Positions 18,468 to 25,964 of a DNA stretch of 64,000 bases are shown here, in pieces. A program made the translations under genes and the position numbers. Below the pieces are notes generated by a model that worked only from the letters and a program-made list of their open reading frames with translations, had not been told where the DNA came from and did not search any database. Source of the stretch: Planktothrix agardhii NIES-204 (GTDB taxonomy: Bacteria; Cyanobacteriota; Cyanobacteriia; Cyanobacteriales; Microcoleaceae); contig AP017991.1 in NCBI GenBank assembly GCA_003609755.1, positions 780,001-844,000 on the forward strand, given 5' to 3'. Position 1 is the stretch's first letter. Each line of letters starts with the position of its first letter.

Positions 18468-18854
18468 TTAGATTTCGTCCCAACCACTGACCCCAGAAGA
18501 CATCACATAACTGGTGACGCTGGCTTCAAAGAAGTTGGCTTTAGTATGGGCTTCTTTTTTGGTATCCGAGAAGCGTTCTAAATGGGTATAGGGACTTTTA
18601 CTGTACTTTTTATCGGGATAAAGGGGCTCTAAACCGATAGAACGTAACCGAATATTGGCTAGATATTTGGTGTATTGTTCCGTACTATATTCCGTGATTC
18701 CTAAGATATTATTTCCGACAATATGATTAGTCCATTTACATTCATGTTCAACGGCGGTATTGAACATTTCGTAAATCTGATCAACGGAGTGGGTAAACAC
18801 TTCCATGGCTTCAGGAATTAATTTTTGGAATAACCGAACATGAGAAAGTTCATC
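18468..18854 (-). CDS. nrdB: nrdB exon 5
   Basis: 128 codons plus stop, beginning DELSHVRLFQ (Glu and His iron ligands) and ending SGVSGWDEI. The C-terminal tail is the part that docks on NrdA in this family. The in-frame Met before DELSH comes from intron sequence. Confidence 0.9.
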   Translation of the reverse strand, partial: DELSHVRLFQKLIPEAMEVFTHSVDQIYEMFNTAVEHECKWTNHIVGNNILGITEYSTEQYTKYLANIRLRSIGLEPLYPDKKYSKSPYTHLERFSDTKKEAHTKANFFEASVTSYVMSSGVSGWDEI

Positions 18855-21800
18855 CTTAATATTCAACAAGGGTCGTTAGTCCTTGCCCGTTCTGGTGAAG
18901 AACTGCTGAAAGTCACCTTTCAGAATAGACTATATCATCTTCCTAATAGGAAGCCCCCCGTTTCGTAGCACTTGCTACTACGCTTTTCGGCTGGCTAAAG
19001 CTTTATGTTTAATTTATGTATCATACACGGAACTTGGGATACATATTCTTGAACAACCGCTAAAAATTTTCTAGCTTCCTTCGTTCCACATCTGATTCTA
19101 TAATGCCCTCTATTCTTAACTTGGGTAAAAGATATATCCCATACATCACAAAAATAATCAATTATAATTTGATTATTTTCTTTAGTTGTGTGCGTGTTAA
19201 GAAAAAGTTCATTAGCGTGGATTTTCCCGTTTCTCTTTTTATGGGACAACCCGCCATCATCCATGTACCAAATTGCCAGATGCTCTCGATTTAGTTTATT
19301 AAGCAGTTTCCGGCGATAAATATTCTTGTATCCATCTTTATATAAAACCTTCCTATATAGTTTCCCATAGGATGTTGTTTTAATATACAAACGGTAAGCA
19401 GGAAAACCACTATTATTAAATGGTCTAATAGCTCCACACTCAACACCTTTAGAAACAAGATATTTTCTCTTCCACTGTAAATAATCCAACTGCGAGGAAC
19501 AATGAGTAATTTTAGCAGAACCAGTTTTTGTAATCCATCCATCACCTAAAATGACAGACAAAAAAGCTGTTCTGGTTTCTTTGGTTGTTTTCATAAAGCA
19601 TCCTTACACGCATAGGTGTAGTTTTTATCGCCTTTAGTCGTTGCACCTTTAGAATCAATAACTTCCCAAGCATCAATCCATGTTTTTATAAATATATAAT
19701 GACAGGGGAAAGTTCATCTTTCTACTTGGCTCAGGATTGTCTCAATTGAGAGTTTCCCTGAATTAGAGGGGTTTTCGATTCACGTTACCGTGAAAAGCCG
19801 CTATGAATTTAACGGTTAATCATTTTGAAAATATCAGCAGATCCCGGCATCAACATTCGGGAAGCTAAATTGTAGAAGTAGATAAACCCATTATAGAAGT
19901 AAATCCCTTCTAACATATAGTCTGCTAATAGGGAAATAAAGTAATTTTCCAGGGTGGGATTATCCATATATTGTTGATAAATCCCGGCAATGAATTCACA
20001 GCGATCGCGTAAGACACTATCGGTTTTCCAAAACTCATAAACAAAGGTTCTCCGATCGGATGGAATAATCGTTTCAATCATGTATTGATACATTGTGTTC
20101 AGTTAGGTTCGCTAATCCTAACCCGCTTTATTCAAGCTGCCATAAGTCACCTTATGGATCAGACTATATCTTCAACCCATTGGGTTGCTCCCCATTTCGA
20201 GCCGCTTGGCTCTACGCCTTTTGGCTAGTCGTTGAACTTTTGACCAATCCAACTTCTTGACCGCTATTAATCAGCGAAAATGCAGTTATCTTGTTTGGTC
20301 ACTTAGCTGCTGATTGTCTCTATCGTATATTTTAAAATATTCGAGTGAGATTTTCCAGCAATTAAAGGAGTGATCGATCGCCATTACTGACGAAAGGAGC
20401 TATCAATTAACTCTGATTGTGCATCGCCTCCTGAGAAGTTTGTTCTGCCATACAAAGACTAATTTCTGGGGCAGTTACACAACTTTTTAGATGAGGAATA
20501 TTGCAGGTTTGAACGGAATCTAAGAACGTTAAATAACTTAAAATTCCATCAAATGCCCAACGTTCATCGGGAGTTAAGTTAACATAGTTAGAGTCGATAG
20601 GAGCGTTACCACTCCGACCTCTCCTTCAGAACCGTGCATGAAACTTTCGCCTCACACGGCTCCTTGATAATTCCATCCTTGTTATGGATACGATTCAAAA
20701 CGGATTCTTGTCATAATTCTCAATTATTGGTAATTGCTTACTTTTCGTTAAAGAACCATCATGAGCCGTTTTTATGTCGTGGCAATGTTTGTGTAGAAGT
20801 TGTAAATTATCATAGATGTCTTTACCACTTAATGATGTTGGTTTGATGTGGTCAACTTCTACAATGTCTGTACTTGAAAAATACAAACCACAGTGGGGAC
20901 AAATACCCTTTTGTTTTTTGATTAATTTAGAAACTCTGTTAGGAGTTTCAGGATATTCGCCTTGTCGTTTACTCCAATAAATCCAGTTACCGTCAAATGG
21001 ACTAGCTTCACCTTTAACCTTTGTATGCCTGATGATTGGCGTACTGGCGTGTTTGATTAGTTCTATTCCATCTTCTGTACTGAAACACCAATTTTTGTCG
21101 CCTACTGTTTTCCAGTATTTGTCTTTGTTGATGTTCCCTTTTCCCCTCGTTTTTGCCCAAGCTCTTAGCTTGTCATAAGTTAGATGGTCAACTCTTGAGA
21201 AAGTGTCCTTGCTAACTTTAGTTGAGTAATAGTTTGACCAACCTCTGATAATTGGATTTAGCTTGTTAATTAAAGCCGCTTGAGGTGCATTTTTATGGGT
21301 GTCTATTACTTCAGCTATTTTGGCAAGATGTGTTTTTATTTTGACTTTAGAGGGTGTGATTAATGTTTTAAAACCTAGTGGTATTCCATATGAACTATAA
21401 GCACCTCTGTAGTTTCCTACTCTGTGTTGTTGTATATGGAATCCTAAGAAATCAAACCCAATATTTCCATCAATTTTATCGAGGGTGTGGGTTAATTTTG
21501 TCTTACTTGGTTTTAATTCCAATCCCATGTCACTTAACCAGTTAGCTATTATCTCTTGACATTTTTTGACAACGTTTATATCCTTGTGGATTATTACAAA
21601 GTCATCAGCATAGCGGATTAGGCTAAGTTCAGAGCGGTTTGCTACTTTACTCCCTTTTAGAGTTTCTGCATATTGCATAACTCTTTCTTCCATACCATGT
21701 AGGGCAATATTTGCAAGTAAGGGTGAAATTATCCCTCCTTGTGGTGTACCTGAGTATGTAGGAAAAAGTTCTTTTCCGTCACAGTACCCTGCTTTGAGCC

Positions 21801-23559
21801 ATCTTTTAATTAATCGGCTTAAAGTGGGGTATGTGTGTATTTTGGAGAGTAACGCTTTGTGGTTTATGCGGTCAAAGCATTTTGATATATCAGCATCAAG
21901 AACATATTTGGCTTTTTTGCTGATACTGGTAAATATTGCTTCAATCGCATCGTGACAGGAACGTCCTGGTCTGAAACCATAACTGTTTGGCTCAAAGAGC
22001 GCCTCCCATTCTGGTTCTAACGCTAGTTTGACTAACGCTTGCAATGCACGATCGTTGATTGTGGGTATTCCTAACGGACGAGTTTCAGTTGTGCCGGGTT
22101 TGGGAATATTAACTCTGCGAGTAGGTTTTACCTTACCTGTTAACTTTAATCGTCCTATAAGGCTCATACGTTGCTTTGGTGTTAGTGACTTAACACCATC
22201 TACACCCGCCGTATTTTTTCCTTGATTATCTTGTGTTACCCTTCTGACTGCAATACATTTAGCTGACCAGGAATTAATCAGGGTCTTTTGAAGTTTGCGA
22301 ACTGCTTTAACATCGCCTCGTTCACTCGCTTGAAATATGCGCTTTTGCAACTTGAACGTCAATCTCTCGGCTTTACGCCAATTGATTTCGTTCCATTCCA
22401 CCGTCTGATTTTTATTCAGCGTTTTAGACATATATATTGCTACTTGTTCTATTTCTTTGGAATTACCGAGTATCTGTCAGCATATCCCTTGCATTACCAA
22501 GGGCATTCGCTTTTGATACCATCCCTCCCCCATATATCGTTCATTAGCTACTTACTGGATTTCGACCTCTCCAGAGATATATAGGGGTTACTTCGTTCCG
22601 ATTACATATTTGTTTGAAGTCTTTAGCGTGATGCTTTCCACCGGGTTTATTGGGCGGGTGCTTATAAGTCGGGTGGACAACCGCTTATGCCCTATCCTTG
22701 CCTTTTGGCTTGGTGTTAATCAGATTTTTACCGTATTTTTCAATGGATTTATTCCTGATTTAGCCTTTACACCATTAGATGTAACGATGGTTCAGACACA
22801 TCTTTGCTTGCGCTACGCATGAACTTCTTGCTCGATAGTTACCAGATTTGGCTACCAGTAGTTCTACCTTTTAACCCCGCTTTAGCCTGTTGGTTGCTAA
22901 CCAAGCAAACTAGGGGTTATGCTTTCACCTCAGCACTTGAGGGGTGGGACTTAACTCACGGAGTTTCACCCACAAATGTAATCAGTTGTCACTAACTGCC
23001 TGAGCAGCTAGGCTAACCGTCCCATAAGCATTTCAGCTTATTTTAGGTCAAACGAATCGCACATCCACGACATCCTGAGTAATATCTAATTTTTCAGGTC
23101 ATTGGTGTTCAGTTAGATTCGCTAAGTCTAACCCGCTTGATTTAAGCTGCCATAAGTCACCTTATGGATCGGACTATCTCATCATCCTTTTAATAGAAAA
23201 AGGAGTCCCCCGCTTCGACTGTCAATCGCTTACAGCCTACTCCCTTATAGGGTTAGTCTCTACACCTTCTACTATTTTTAATAGTAGCTTGGCACGGTAT
23301 TGTCTGTCACCGAAAGAGATATTTTTTATAGATAATAAAAATTTCTCTTTCACAGATCCAGAGTTTCACCGTTTTCAAGGGATTTAGTCTGAGCTACCTA
23401 ATTAACCCAGAAATTCTCGCGCATTTGTTTATACAAACCCACCGCCCAGGAATAACGCACATCATTTAATTGCATTAAATTTGTGGTTTCCCCAAACCAA
23501 ATAGAACGATGATTAATATCATCATTTCCATTCGGATTGAAAATCGGATTTATGGGCAT
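18468..23559 (-). CDS. nrdB: Ribonucleotide reductase beta subunit, split by four introns
   Basis: Class I ribonucleotide reductase small subunit, which holds the di-iron centre and tyrosyl radical that start deoxynucleotide synthesis. Five exons on the minus strand: 23559-23405, 23099-23063, about 20592 (or 20586) to 20410, 20090-19812 and 18854-18468. Spliced, they give about 344-346 aa, a normal beta length. Expected ligands follow in order: Asp in FLDSVQ, Glu/His in QEAMH, the radical Tyr opening exon 4 (SYQYM), Glu in LEGIYFYNG, Glu/His in DELSH. The junctions restore family sequence such as NFWVPEKLDITQDVVD, HNQSYQYMIE and INRDELSHVRL. Start MPINPIFNPNG at 23559 is the family N-terminus; the frame is open upstream to a GTG at 23661. 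It follows nrdA by about 140 nt. Confidence 0.92.
18855..19811 (-). ncRNA. Group I intron 4 of nrdB, with homing endonuclease ORF
   Basis: A 957-nt intron starting TAAATTCATAGCGG (GCGG pairs with exon CCGT, U-G at the junction) and ending ..ATATTAAG. The conserved core GATATAGTC and AAAGGTGACTTTCAGC lies at about 18860-18935, related to introns 1 and 3. It sits between Arg and Asp of NR|DELSH, just before two metal ligands. It carries a LAGLIDADG ORF. Confidence 0.88.
18995..19594 (-). CDS. LAGLIDADG homing endonuclease (intron-encoded)
   Basis: A 199-aa endonuclease inside group I intron 4. It has two LAGLIDADG-type helices: LSVILGDGWI (about residues 12-21) and LAIWYMDDGG (about 106-115), each with the acidic catalytic residue. 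HTTKENNQIIIDYF and the Arg/Lys-rich first half are typical of intron-borne members. It probably cuts intron-less nrdB alleles at the DELSH site to drive homing and may assist splicing. The frame is intact. Confidence 0.92.
   Translation of the reverse strand: MKTTKETRTAFLSVILGDGWITKTGSAKITHCSSQLDYLQWKRKYLVSKGVECGAIRPFNNSGFPAYRLYIKTTSYGKLYRKVLYKDGYKNIYRRKLLNKLNREHLAIWYMDDGGLSHKKRNGKIHANELFLNTHTTKENNQIIIDYFCDVWDISFTQVKNRGHYRIRCGTKEARKFLAVVQEYVSQVPCMIHKLNIKL
19812..20090 (-). CDS. nrdB: nrdB exon 4
   Basis: 93 codons from YQYMIETIIPSDRR to FKMINR. It includes the radical Tyr (first codon) and the Glu ligand in LEGIYFYNG. The in-frame ATG before it belongs to the intron end, so it is not a real start. 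Confidence 0.88.
20091..20409 (-). ncRNA. Group I intron 3 of nrdB (no ORF)
   Basis: A 319-nt intron beginning TAATTGATAGCTC (GCTC pairs with exon GAGT, U-G at the junction) and ending ..ACACAATG. The core (GATATAGTC, CCATAAGGTGACTTATGG, GGGTTAG..CTAACTGAACAC) is almost the same as in intron 1. It lies exactly between the codons for Ser and the radical Tyr (S|YQYM). Confidence 0.87.
20410..20592 (-). CDS. nrdB: nrdB exon 3
   Basis: It encodes YVNLTPDERWAFDGILSYL and continues to HNQS, carrying the first Asp ligand (FLDSV) and the Glu/His pair (QEAMH). There is no ATG, so gene callers miss it. The 5' edge is 20592 or 20586. The 3' end GAGT pairs with GCTC in intron 3. Confidence 0.85.
20587..23062 (-). 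mobile_element. Group II intron in nrdB with encoded RT/maturase
   Basis: A retroelement of about 2.47 kb. The 5' end is GTGCG (23062-23058), the group II consensus. Domain V is a 34-nt hairpin at 20629-20662 (GAGCCGTGTG..GCACGGTTC type), followed by a domain VI hairpin GGAGTG-GTAA-CGCTCC. The intron ends in AC, at either 20593 or 20587; both keep the nrdB frame. The second gives VVD-YVNLTPDER, which looks closer to the family. The ORF lies in domain IV and about 630 nt of domains I-III precede it. Confidence 0.88.
20695..22431 (-). CDS. ltrA: Group II intron reverse transcriptase/maturase with HNH domain
   Basis: A 578-aa intron-encoded protein for splicing and retrohoming. The order is an N-terminal RT-0 region, the RT fingers and palm (NIPKPGTTETRPLGIPTI, YGFRPGRSCHDAI, catalytic SLIRYADDFVI near residue 275), maturase domain X (IIRGWSNYYS near 400), then a C-terminal HNH endonuclease (CPHCG, EVDHIKP, LQLLHKHCHD). 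All catalytic residues I can check are present, so the element may be mobile. It ends 33 nt before domain V. Confidence 0.95.
   Translation of the reverse strand: MSKTLNKNQTVEWNEINWRKAERLTFKLQKRIFQASERGDVKAVRKLQKTLINSWSAKCIAVRRVTQDNQGKNTAGVDGVKSLTPKQRMSLIGRLKLTGKVKPTRRVNIPKPGTTETRPLGIPTINDRALQALVKLALEPEWEALFEPNSYGFRPGRSCHDAIEAIFTSISKKAKYVLDADISKCFDRINHKALLSKIHTYPTLSRLIKRWLKAGYCDGKELFPTYSGTPQGGIISPLLANIALHGMEERVMQYAETLKGSKVANRSELSLIRYADDFVIIHKDINVVKKCQEIIANWLSDMGLELKPSKTKLTHTLDKIDGNIGFDFLGFHIQQHRVGNYRGAYSSYGIPLGFKTLITPSKVKIKTHLAKIAEVIDTHKNAPQAALINKLNPIIRGWSNYYSTKVSKDTFSRVDHLTYDKLRAWAKTRGKGNINKDKYWKTVGDKNWCFSTEDGIELIKHASTPIIRHTKVKGEASPFDGNWIYWSKRQGEYPETPNRVSKLIKKQKGICPHCGLYFSSTDIVEVDHIKPTSLSGKDIYDNLQLLHKHCHDIKTAHDGSLTKSKQLPIIENYDKNPF
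23063..23099 (-). CDS. nrdB: nrdB exon 2 (37-nt micro-exon)
   Basis: It encodes (V)PEKLDITQDVVD, a family-conserved stretch, and nothing else. It is enclosed by group I intron 1 and the group II intron. Without it the protein would lose a conserved loop and the reading frame. Confidence 0.85.
23100..23404 (-). ncRNA. Group I intron 1 of nrdB (no ORF)
   Basis: A 305-nt self-splicing intron. It begins TAATTAGGTAGCTCAGA, where GCTCAGA pairs with the exon end TCTGGGT through a U-G wobble at the splice site. It ends with G (..CCAATG), as group I introns do. Its 3' part (23101-23185) holds GATAGTCC and CCATAAGGTGACTTATGG, nearly identical to intron 3. Removing it joins W-V-P-E-K in frame. Confidence 0.85.
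23405..23559 (-). CDS. nrdB: nrdB exon 1
   Basis: 51 codons plus two bases, ending ..MRENFWV with GT in exon 1 and A in exon 2. The 3' end TCTGGGT pairs with GCTCAGA inside the following intron (P1, U-G at the junction), which fixes the boundary. Confidence 0.88.
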
Positions 23560-23699
23560 AGTTAAGGGCTTTCTACGCCCATTTTTGTCCAGGGGTGGGG
23601 ATGAAGCAAAGTCTAAGGTCATACTCGTAAAATCAAGGAATTTAAGATAACTTTCCCCCACCAGTATGACATAGTTTTATCAAGTTAGCTTGTTAGCCT

Positions 23700-25964
23700 T
23701 TAATTAGCACAAGCAACGCAACCATCATCAGCTTCTTTGAAACTATCACGCTGCACGGTTCTGACATAATAAACCGCTTTACAGCCTTCTTGCCAAGCTA
23801 AGATTAAGGTATCAAAAATATCCTTAGCTTTGATAGCGCGATCGGGTTCATCAGGAAAGTAAACTCCCTCATTCAAATTAAACATTAATTCCATGGAAAT
23901 TCCGGTATCAATCCACTTTTGAACCGTCGCCACCGCCTTAACAACAATTTGTTGATTTAGGCTTTTATTTTCCGGGTAAAACCAAAAATGATCCTGAAGA
24001 AACGGTGGAGCAATTGGAACTGTTCCCTTCGCCCATTTGTCATAGAAAAAACGACTATAACAGGGCAAAATACTAGCGGTACATCCTTGCACCAAAGAAG
24101 AGGATGTGTTAGGAGCGATCGCAGTAATATGAGAATTACGAATCCCATATTGTTGAATATCTAAACTCAATTGTTGCCAACGTTCTTTCTGCGCCGCGTG
24201 TTGCAAAAACCACTCTACGGGTTTCGCCCCAATTAACTTTCCTTGACTCCAAGCACTGCCTTTAAATGCTGGGTAATAACCCCGTTCTTTTGCCAGTTCC
24301 ATTGAGGTTTTAGTACAATAGAAACCGATATCTTCAAACAGATGACTAATTTCGTTTAAATGGTTATAAGTTAAGCGATTTTTGGCTAACCAATCCGCTA
24401 ATCCCATCGCCCCTACCCCAATTGTTCGATATTTTTGGTTATGGTTTTTACTAGCTTCAAAGGGCGTGTTAGTAATTTCAATGGTATTATCTAACATTCG
24501 CACCGCAATTTCACAGACTTCTGGCAGTTCTTCTCGTTCAATATTAGCTAAATTTAAAGAATCCAAGTTGCAAGTGTGGGCTTCTTCTCCGGGTTTAACA
24601 TTCGACCAACTTTCTTGGCACAAATTCCCCCCCGGAATATAGCCTTCATGTTGATTAGGATTAGCCCGATTTGAGGTATCTTTGAACCATAAATAGGGCA
24701 TTCCGGTTTCTACTTGGGAACGCATGATTAACTTAAATAAATCCCGAGCATTAACCTTTTTATAAAGGGTGATTTCCGTATCTAAGTTTGCTTCTATTTT
24801 TTGATATACACTTTCAAAGGATTCCCCCCAAGTTGTGGCTAATTCAATGCCCAGTTTTTCCCTAACTTCATAGGGGTCAACCAGTGTCCAATCTTCTCGA
24901 CTGATCACCCGACGCATGAACTCATCAGGAATCACTAATTGAGGGAAAATATCATAAGCTTTGCGACGTTGATCGCCATTTTCTGTCTGCATTTCCAGAA
25001 ATTCAGGAACATCTAAATGCCAGACATCTAAACTCACCGTAATCGCCCCCGCCCGACGTCCACCTTGATTTACCGCGATCGCCGTATCGTTTAATAATTT
25101 AATCCAAGGAATCACACCCCCCGAGGTGTTTTGTTTTCCCATCACCCAACTGCCAGTTGACCGCACTCGGCTAACATTTGTGCCCACACCGCCGCCATTT
25201 TTAGAAATTCTGGCGGCATCTTTAATCGTGTCAAAAATGCTTTCCAAATTATCATCCATTGCCGTAATAAAACAGCTACTCAGGGAGCCGTGAGGAATCC
25301 TTAAATTTGCTAAAATTGGGGTAGCTAAGGAAACTTTACGTTGAGCGATCGCTTGATAAAACTTTCTCGCCCAGAATAACCGATTTTCTGGTTTTTCTAC
25401 AATTGCTAATAGCAACGCACAGGTTAATAGAGCTTCTTGGGGTAATTCATCTGTTAATAAATAGCGTTTATTTAACAAAACTGCCCCAGCATAATCATAA
25501 TCTTTGTCCCATTCGGGATTAATCCAACTTCCGGCCTCTTGAAGTTCTTCGGCGGTGTAAGTCAGAATCCGAACGTCATATTGTCCCTGTTCCACTTTAT
25601 TATGAACCGTTCTGCAATAGTCGCCGTATTCATAGCCCCGACGGACTAAGGTATCTTTCCATAAACTCCAAATCTGTAGTCTTCCCGCCACATAACGCCA
25701 GTTTGGGTCGGAGGGACTGCATAACTCTAAGGCGCAATTAATTAAATTATCCTGAATTTCTCGGGTAGTCACACCATGCCGCAGTCGGGTGGTTAGTCCC
25801 GCTTCTAGGGTAATCGGATTCGCCTCCATTCCCTCACAAGCCCAGTTAACGACTTCTCGAATTTTAGAGACATCTAATGGGGCCAGACTACCATCTCGTT
25901 TAATGACTTTAATATTTTTATTAGGGGTGATAGTAAGGGATGGTGATGTTGATTGCATAGTCAA
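23700..25964 (-). CDS. nrdA: Ribonucleoside-diphosphate reductase alpha subunit
   Basis: A 754-aa catalytic subunit of class I ribonucleotide reductase. An N-terminal ATP-cone (VIKRDGSLAPLDVSKI, about residues 20-100) provides allosteric control. The active site has the redox Cys of HGSLSSCF, the radical-relay NLCQE (Asn, Cys, Glu) and the partner Cys of HTCNLDSLNL. The C-terminus ends CVACAN, the CxxC pair that passes electrons to the active site. No intein or intron is present, unlike its partner nrdB immediately downstream. Two NrdR-like boxes lie upstream. Confidence 0.96.
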   Translation of the reverse strand: MTMQSTSPSLTITPNKNIKVIKRDGSLAPLDVSKIREVVNWACEGMEANPITLEAGLTTRLRHGVTTREIQDNLINCALELCSPSDPNWRYVAGRLQIWSLWKDTLVRRGYEYGDYCRTVHNKVEQGQYDVRILTYTAEELQEAGSWINPEWDKDYDYAGAVLLNKRYLLTDELPQEALLTCALLLAIVEKPENRLFWARKFYQAIAQRKVSLATPILANLRIPHGSLSSCFITAMDDNLESIFDTIKDAARISKNGGGVGTNVSRVRSTGSWVMGKQNTSGGVIPWIKLLNDTAIAVNQGGRRAGAITVSLDVWHLDVPEFLEMQTENGDQRRKAYDIFPQLVIPDEFMRRVISREDWTLVDPYEVREKLGIELATTWGESFESVYQKIEANLDTEITLYKKVNARDLFKLIMRSQVETGMPYLWFKDTSNRANPNQHEGYIPGGNLCQESWSNVKPGEEAHTCNLDSLNLANIEREELPEVCEIAVRMLDNTIEITNTPFEASKNHNQKYRTIGVGAMGLADWLAKNRLTYNHLNEISHLFEDIGFYCTKTSMELAKERGYYPAFKGSAWSQGKLIGAKPVEWFLQHAAQKERWQQLSLDIQQYGIRNSHITAIAPNTSSSLVQGCTASILPCYSRFFYDKWAKGTVPIAPPFLQDHFWFYPENKSLNQQIVVKAVATVQKWIDTGISMELMFNLNEGVYFPDEPDRAIKAKDIFDTLILAWQEGCKAVYYVRTVQRDSFKEADDGCVACAN

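Follow-up and report, generated by a model that had tools for sequence, protein, structure and literature searches.

A Planktothrix agardhii nrdB gene interrupted by three group I introns and one group II intron, in a genus whose strains carry different intron sets

The stretch of Planktothrix agardhii NIES-204 DNA analyzed here (64,000 nt; hereafter the window) comes from a host genome of 5.08 Mb that is 99.99% complete, and it carries on its minus strand nrdB, the gene for the beta chain of class I ribonucleotide reductase (RNR). The coding sequence is divided into five exons, which when joined give 1098 nt and 365 amino acids, and is interrupted by three group I introns (305, 319, and 957 nt) and one group II intron of 2476 nt (Table 1). 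A preliminary description of this DNA had claimed that the five exons rebuild a normal beta chain, and the spliced protein bears this out, with scores of 231 bits against PF00268 (cut-off 33.6) and 356.3 bits against NCBIfam NF007184 (cut-off 310). Residues 27-357 align to the solved beta chain 6zjk, and the segments FLDSVQ, EAMHNQSY, LEGIYFY, and RDELSH, which we take to be the motifs holding the metal ligands and the radical tyrosine, align with solved beta chains. The exons could be aligned without indels across 24 nrdB loci, comprising 11 from ten Planktothrix genomes (the window among them) and 13 from other cyanobacteria; in loci outside the genus the first 55-63 nt are unaligned, and one locus (L082) aligns only from nt 220. 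The five-exon gene of the preliminary description stands, but its 5' limit, a GTG at 23661, is probably not the start. The likely start is the ATG at 23622, which is common to eight of the ten Planktothrix genomes, the alignments of the other two (G005 and G008) beginning at nt 7. Exon 2, with a group I intron before it and a group II intron after it, is just 37 nt long, which would make ordered splicing demanding.

Table 1. Features of the nrdB region, with window coordinates
Feature	Position	Strand	Basis or remark
nrdA, class I RNR large subunit, without introns	23700-25964	-	Pfam; upstream of nrdB, same orientation
nrdB exon 1, ATG start	23405-23622	-	Spliced alignment; PF00268 piece weak, 11.6 bits
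I1, group I, without ORF, 305 nt	23100-23404	-	RF00028 66.3 bits; P1 7 bp, P10 6 bp
nrdB exon 2, 37 nt	23063-23099	-	Exon model and spliced alignment
I2, group II, site 255, GTGCG...AC, 2476 nt	20587-23062	-	RF00029 63.6 bits; ends match plasmid copy
EBS2 of I2, CATCT	22777-22781	-	5/5 pairs with IBS2 GGATG
EBS1 of I2, GTCCAC	22673-22678	-	6/6 pairs with IBS1 GTGGAT, exon 2 end
I2 ORF, 578 aa: reverse transcriptase, maturase (GIIM), HNH	20695-22431	-	Pfam; TIGR04416 340.8 bits (cut-off 300)
Domains V and VI of I2	20587-20664	-	RF00029
nrdB exon 3	20410-20586	-	Spliced alignment
I3, group I, without ORF, 319 nt	20091-20409	-	RF00028 90.0 bits; P1 4 bp, P10 7 bp
nrdB exon 4	19812-20090	-	Spliced alignment
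I4, group I, 957 nt	18855-19811	-	RF00028 46.4 bits; 3' end from empty alleles
I4 ORF, 199 aa: LAGLIDADG_2 homing endonuclease	18995-19594	-	PF03161 76 bits
nrdB exon 5, including stop	18468-18854	-	Spliced alignment

The further claims of the preliminary description concerned the introns themselves, and these were upheld. Each of I1, I3, and I4 has a P1 pairing whose U-G pair lies at the 5' splice site and ends in G, and I2 shows the reported GTGCG start (with AC at its end) and domains V and VI. Covariance-model searches, which had been proposed as a check, placed I1 (match span 23150-23414), I3 (20140-20419), and the group II domains V and VI above the gathering score. I4 falls below the 50-bit cut-off (E 1e-9), with a second 3' piece of 20.4 bits past its ORF, and the I4 alleles of two sister genomes, which lack the ORF, reach 102.6 and 99.7 bits. 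The covariance models, the rebuilt protein, and an empty allele of every site in sister genomes agree on four introns of two classes.

Insertion sites are numbered here by nucleotides after the nrdB start, as taken from the spliced alignment. I1 (site 218) lies two bases into codon 73, the codon that follows W72; I3 (site 432) lies immediately 5' of the Y145 codon in EAMHNQSY; and I4 (site 711) lies immediately 5' of D238-E239 in RDELSH. In E. coli numbering, the 432, 711, and 218 sites are presumably near Y122, E238, and W48. Conserved codons are the usual targets of homing endonucleases, and windows around the four group I sites were slightly more conserved than random sites (P 0.038), while the six group II sites showed no excess conservation over random sites (P 0.125); with 71 of 80 named loci used in the test, choice of site by conservation is only a hint. 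P1 spans 7 bp at site 218, where it covaries between genera: exon GGGT faces internal guide sequence (IGS) GCTC or GCCC, and exon GGAT faces GTCC (the register chosen by script in L078 differs from that in the other loci). P1 is 4 bp at 432, 637, and 711, a pairing that is equally possible at 6-23% of the other T positions of the gene.

The 3' end of I4 was placed 9 nt further than at first, because of the intron-empty alleles in relatives and the indel-free alignment. The first junction (...TTG/AAT..., the slash marking the splice point) gave a protein of 368 amino acids that read ...KMINRNIKDELSH..., with the three extra residues NIK, and was contradicted by sister genes without an intron there, which read ...KMINRDELSH.... 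With the shifted end (...TTAAG/GATGAA..., that is, ...TTGAATATTAAG/GATGAA) NIK is gone, the terminal G is kept, and a 5-bp P10 forms with the guide sequence. An exchange of 3' domains between I1 and I3, suggested by their near-identity there to the eye, is not claimed, since the difference from the remainder of the intron was not significant (65/70 versus 149/178, Fisher p 0.066).

From its domain content, the group II intron I2 may belong to subclass CL2B. Pairing between group II introns and their insertion sites is specific: EBS1 matched its own site at five or more of six positions in six of eight introns, compared with 6 of 50 wrong-site pairings, and EBS2 matched at four or more of five positions in nine of 11 introns, compared with 7 of 104, the EBS columns having been chosen beforehand as the best-scoring ones. 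The intron at site 213 of G007 is a clear exception (1/6 and 1/5), and partial fits were seen for EBS1 at site 561 of G002 (4/6) and EBS2 at site 341 of G009 (2/5). Group II copies with 84-91% mutual identity occupy nrdB sites 255, 561, and 804 and two further places in the window's genome, sqdB and another locus. In addition, plasmid p4 of P. agardhii No.365 (NZ_LR882948.1) carries an 83.5% identical copy whose ends agree with those of I2; it was the best of 490 plasmid records that matched some part of the introns, many of them from Escherichia.

Two side observations concern the relatives of I2. A related group II intron at L143 1819-4312 (G000:C1, about 2459818-2462311) interrupts a sqdB-like gene, named by eye from the protein of its 3' exon, and of the 5' exon only ATGAAAGTCCTGGTT is visible. 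The reverse transcriptase ORFs of L130 and L131 (G000:C1:3178865 and 2462234 regions) both hold an in-frame PPQAPRARGVWGGG in place of the RPLG of the nrdB copy, which could reflect the insertion of a small repeat into the reading frame.

The four-intron gene of the window is not an isolated case in Planktothrix. In all ten Planktothrix genomes searched nrdB is in pieces, and together these genomes carry 30 introns at ten sites. The four group I sites are filled in six (218), three (432), seven (637), and five (711) of the ten genomes, and the six group II sites in one (213), two (255), two (341), two (561), one (804), and one (909), the intron at 909 being visible as two contig ends, GTGCG... 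and ...CTCTAAC. Every site is empty in at least three genomes and none is filled in all ten, yet each genome has at least one group I intron in nrdB. There are nine distinct intron sets, with G003 and G009 having the same one; the set of the window is {218, 255, 432, 711}, that of G001, a member of the same species, is {218, 561, 637, 711}, and G002 has five introns. Rfam supports the intron classes in the sister loci, where ORF-bearing introns score lower. Because related strains carry different intron sets, nrdB looks like a landing strip on which introns are still coming and going. The 218 intron is absent in both cases in which a group II intron occupies or adjoins the P1 region of that site (at 213 in G007 and at 220 in L077).

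Genome-wide searches of the genus place these numbers in context. Nine of 89 group II matches in the ten genomes fall within nrdB, against an expectation of about 0.016 from its length, and several of the nine are shared by descent. RF00028 gave 38 matches in the genus, 19 in nrdB and the other 19 mostly in tRNA genes; ARAGORN found 17 of the latter flanked by tRNA-Leu(UAA) or tRNA-Arg(CCU). The group I intron of L128 (G000:C1:3335031-3335280) borders the 5' half of tRNA-Arg(CCU) at one end, and its other flank is masked. A 27.5-bit match in G004 (L162) falls in what looks like a sensor kinase/response regulator region and is probably a false positive. The search recovered 17 of the 21 nrdB group I introns, and the four it missed carry ORFs; thus, ORF-bearing group I introns elsewhere may have been missed too.

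Beyond the genus, this nrdB was found in 15 of 61 genomes of the family, ten of which are Planktothrix. Both genomes of genus g8 have introns at 218 and 711, and the three other family members have no intron within the aligned part. Across the order, 113 of 243 sampled genomes have this nrdB, in at least two pieces in 36 (30 of them outside Planktothrix, and a few on two contigs) and as a match in one piece in 77, not all of full length. Twenty of the 30 split genes outside Planktothrix were inspected, and in 18 of these the insertions, 24 in all and placed by alignment without shifting, fall exactly at 218, 432, 637, or 711 (two of the 18, G250 and G186, are apparently the same genomes as L076 and L078). 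An Rfam group I match at E 0.001 was obtained in 14 of the 18 loci and not in the other four. The remaining two genes, L254 (G172) and L259 (G213), have group II introns at 637 and near 436. In L254 there is a second group II domain V match, and the first exon is unplaced. Named genomes with an intron at 218 are those of Nostoc, Rhizonema, an uncultured Scytonema, Geminocystis, and a Coleofasciculaceae MAG, and group II introns lie at 145 and 220 in a Crocosphaera MAG (L077) and at 156 in C. watsonii (L075). In one genome (G245:C1:4635861-4636505), NrdB residues 52-157 and 256-364 adjoin with zero DNA between them, and about 100 codons are seemingly missing.

We consider it very likely that the window carries a working nrdB from which four mobile ribozyme introns are removed before translation, and that strains differ in their introns because these are still being gained and lost. 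I1, I3, and I4 would be removed by guanosine-initiated group I splicing, and I2 by lariat group II splicing aided by its own maturase. Group I introns are predicted to spread through double-strand-break homing, always at the same four sites, into nrdB alleles that lack them, with LAGLIDADG, HNH, and GIY-YIG genes coming and going independently of the ribozyme, and group II introns would retro-insert at other nrdB sites via EBS/IBS pairing. The anatomy of the gene, the intron boundaries, the filled and empty alleles, the failure to find another RNR, the purifying selection on the exons, and the site-specific pairing are direct observations, and with them we count the horizontal spread at two group I sites discussed below. 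We infer from them that splicing occurs in the cell and that the endonucleases and the reverse transcriptase are active, and likewise the direction in which individual introns were gained or lost.

An alternative, which we regard as rather unlikely, is that the introns are old and vertically inherited, and that the sets differ only because introns of a rich ancestral set were lost. Introns at all four group I sites are found elsewhere in the order, so their presence must be old somewhere, and the intron at 218, which is common to g8 in the same family, is without clear incongruence: introns there match 0.67-0.85 of the Planktothrix reference in other families and 0.75-0.76 in the same family, in no clear conflict with the host families. 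The other sites argue against loss as the sole process. At 432, the intron cores of the window and of G206, a member of another family, share 93.7% identity, whereas the exons are 77.3% identical and their third codon positions 57.7%. At 711, the matched share of the Planktothrix reference is 0.69-0.79 in six genomes of other families and only 0.61-0.65 in the two g8 genomes; long ORF-bearing introns can inflate these figures, but two of the six (0.69 and 0.78) are short. We read this incongruent divergence as a sign of horizontal homing at no fewer than two of the group I sites. The similar group II copies at several nrdB sites, at two other places in the genome, and on a plasmid likewise fit poorly with descent and loss.

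Ongoing gain and loss would also be consistent with the turnover of the endonuclease genes. At site 711, no ORF is present in G002, an HNH gene occupies one loop in G001 and G004, and a LAGLIDADG gene occupies another loop in G000. The other sites add a GIY-YIG type at 637 and an HNH type at 432; the ORF at 218 in G001 and G006, with a similar one in L076, is without a Pfam match and HNH-like by eye, and the Geminocystis 218 intron has LAGLIDADG (Pfam was applied to one copy per kind). The endonuclease genes are therefore not fixed to their ribozymes, and even within a species one site can hold different ones. On viral contigs, the LAGLIDADG genes nearest to the I4 ORF are 64-68% identical to it (L163-L165, among the best 80 of 141), and group I cores lie near such genes among phage-like genes (L165 1758-1995 and L164 130-290). 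No nrdB was found near the viral relatives in 80 loci with flanks of up to 3 kb, and the best match in named phage genomes is 40% identical (11 records). As evidence for phage as a vector, this is suggestive only.

A broader and more speculative proposal, to which we give slightly less credence than to descent and loss, is that nrdB of the Cyanobacteriales is an intron marketplace, in which four near-catalytic group I sites and interchangeable endonucleases are traded across families and group II introns add further sites, and that in Planktothrix guanosine-dependent splicing controls dNTP synthesis and replication. It is unlikely that the introns have been adopted as a regulator, with guanosine-dependent splicing or ribosome-controlled folding tying the supply of NrdB to the nucleotide pool. 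Three guanosine-dependent ribozymes in a gene of nucleotide metabolism would suit such a role, as would the in-frame stop found 0-3 codons into all 30 group I introns examined (21 from Planktothrix and nine others) and the constant presence of a group I intron in the Planktothrix genes. Against such a role, each of the ten sites is vacant in some Planktothrix genomes, and an uninterrupted nrdB is common in the order.

It is very improbable that nrdB is a decayed pseudogene broken by insertions, with dNTPs supplied by another enzyme. The preliminary description had named an intact second nrdB, which would make this copy redundant, as what would speak against it, and a profile search of the window's genome found no second PF00268 locus. 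The same genome has a single match to the large subunit (PF02867), and neither NrdD (PF13597) nor a monomeric class II RNR (PF17975) was found in it; positive controls were detected in each search, including Synechococcus elongatus for the class II enzyme. The exons are under strong purifying selection, with the frame kept and dN of 0.001-0.041, dS of 0.11-0.51, and dN/dS of about 0.01-0.09 between the window and eight other Planktothrix genomes (G008, whose gene is split over two contigs, was left out). Moreover, the insertions lie at ribozyme boundaries and have empty alleles elsewhere. Since nrdB belongs to the sole RNR found, is under purifying selection, and holds introns that cannot be translated, splicing is almost certainly needed for its function, as judged from sequence. 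An assembly error or chimera is scarcely conceivable, the same sites and boundaries recurring in other Planktothrix genomes and in other families.

A plain open-frame reading would call the cyanobacterial nrdB broken, which is probably not so. Instead, Planktothrix offers a natural series in which one essential gene carries one to five introns of two ribozyme classes, with ten sites that are occupied in some genomes and vacant in others, and with one site whose endonuclease gene is exchanged within a species. With this series, the gain and loss of introns, the replacement of their endonucleases, and what multiple splicing costs become directly testable in bacteria.

RNR genes have a history as homes of introns. 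The title of a 2001 study by Lazarevic reportedly speaks of a 'refuge' in connection with RNR-gene introns of Bacillus phages and prophages, and another titled study is said to deal with those of phage Twort. In the parts of the open-access literature available to us, no mixed, strain-variable intron collection in one essential gene was found, nor a bacterial gene with both intron classes or a mention of Planktothrix nrdB introns. Among cyanobacteria, one source mentions 'split ribonucleotide reductase enzymes' in Nostoc (PMC5987646), and another (PMC8919778) notes that P. agardhii_A, in contrast to its family, has fewer than 10 group II introns. The Nostoc punctiforme RNR (Meng et al. 2007, as described in an excerpt of PMC12702839) also has a group I intron in a cyanobacterial RNR gene; it is described as single, and its likeness to the Planktothrix introns is one of description and not of insertion site. 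The RNR gene of a 2003 study, as cited in the portion of PMC4649490 at hand, also holds several self-splicing elements. These are inteins and group II introns, whereas in Planktothrix it is the small-subunit gene that is loaded, with introns of groups I and II at ten strain-variable sites. According to the available part of PMC1995217, nrdB, nrdE, and nrdF of T-even phages and of Bacillus phages and prophages are likewise RNR homes of group I introns with HNH or GIY-YIG genes, but those are phage or prophage genes, whereas Planktothrix nrdB is chromosomal and part of the only RNR found in its host. The same source (Haugen et al. 2007) describes Synechococcus 23S rRNA genes, which carry multiple group I introns and LAGLIDADG genes and resemble the present case except that they involve rRNA and one intron class, while Planktothrix nrdB is an essential protein gene with two classes and three endonuclease families. 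Each element of the Planktothrix gene is of a known kind; what sets the gene apart is how these elements are mixed, how many sites they use, and how they turn over within a species.
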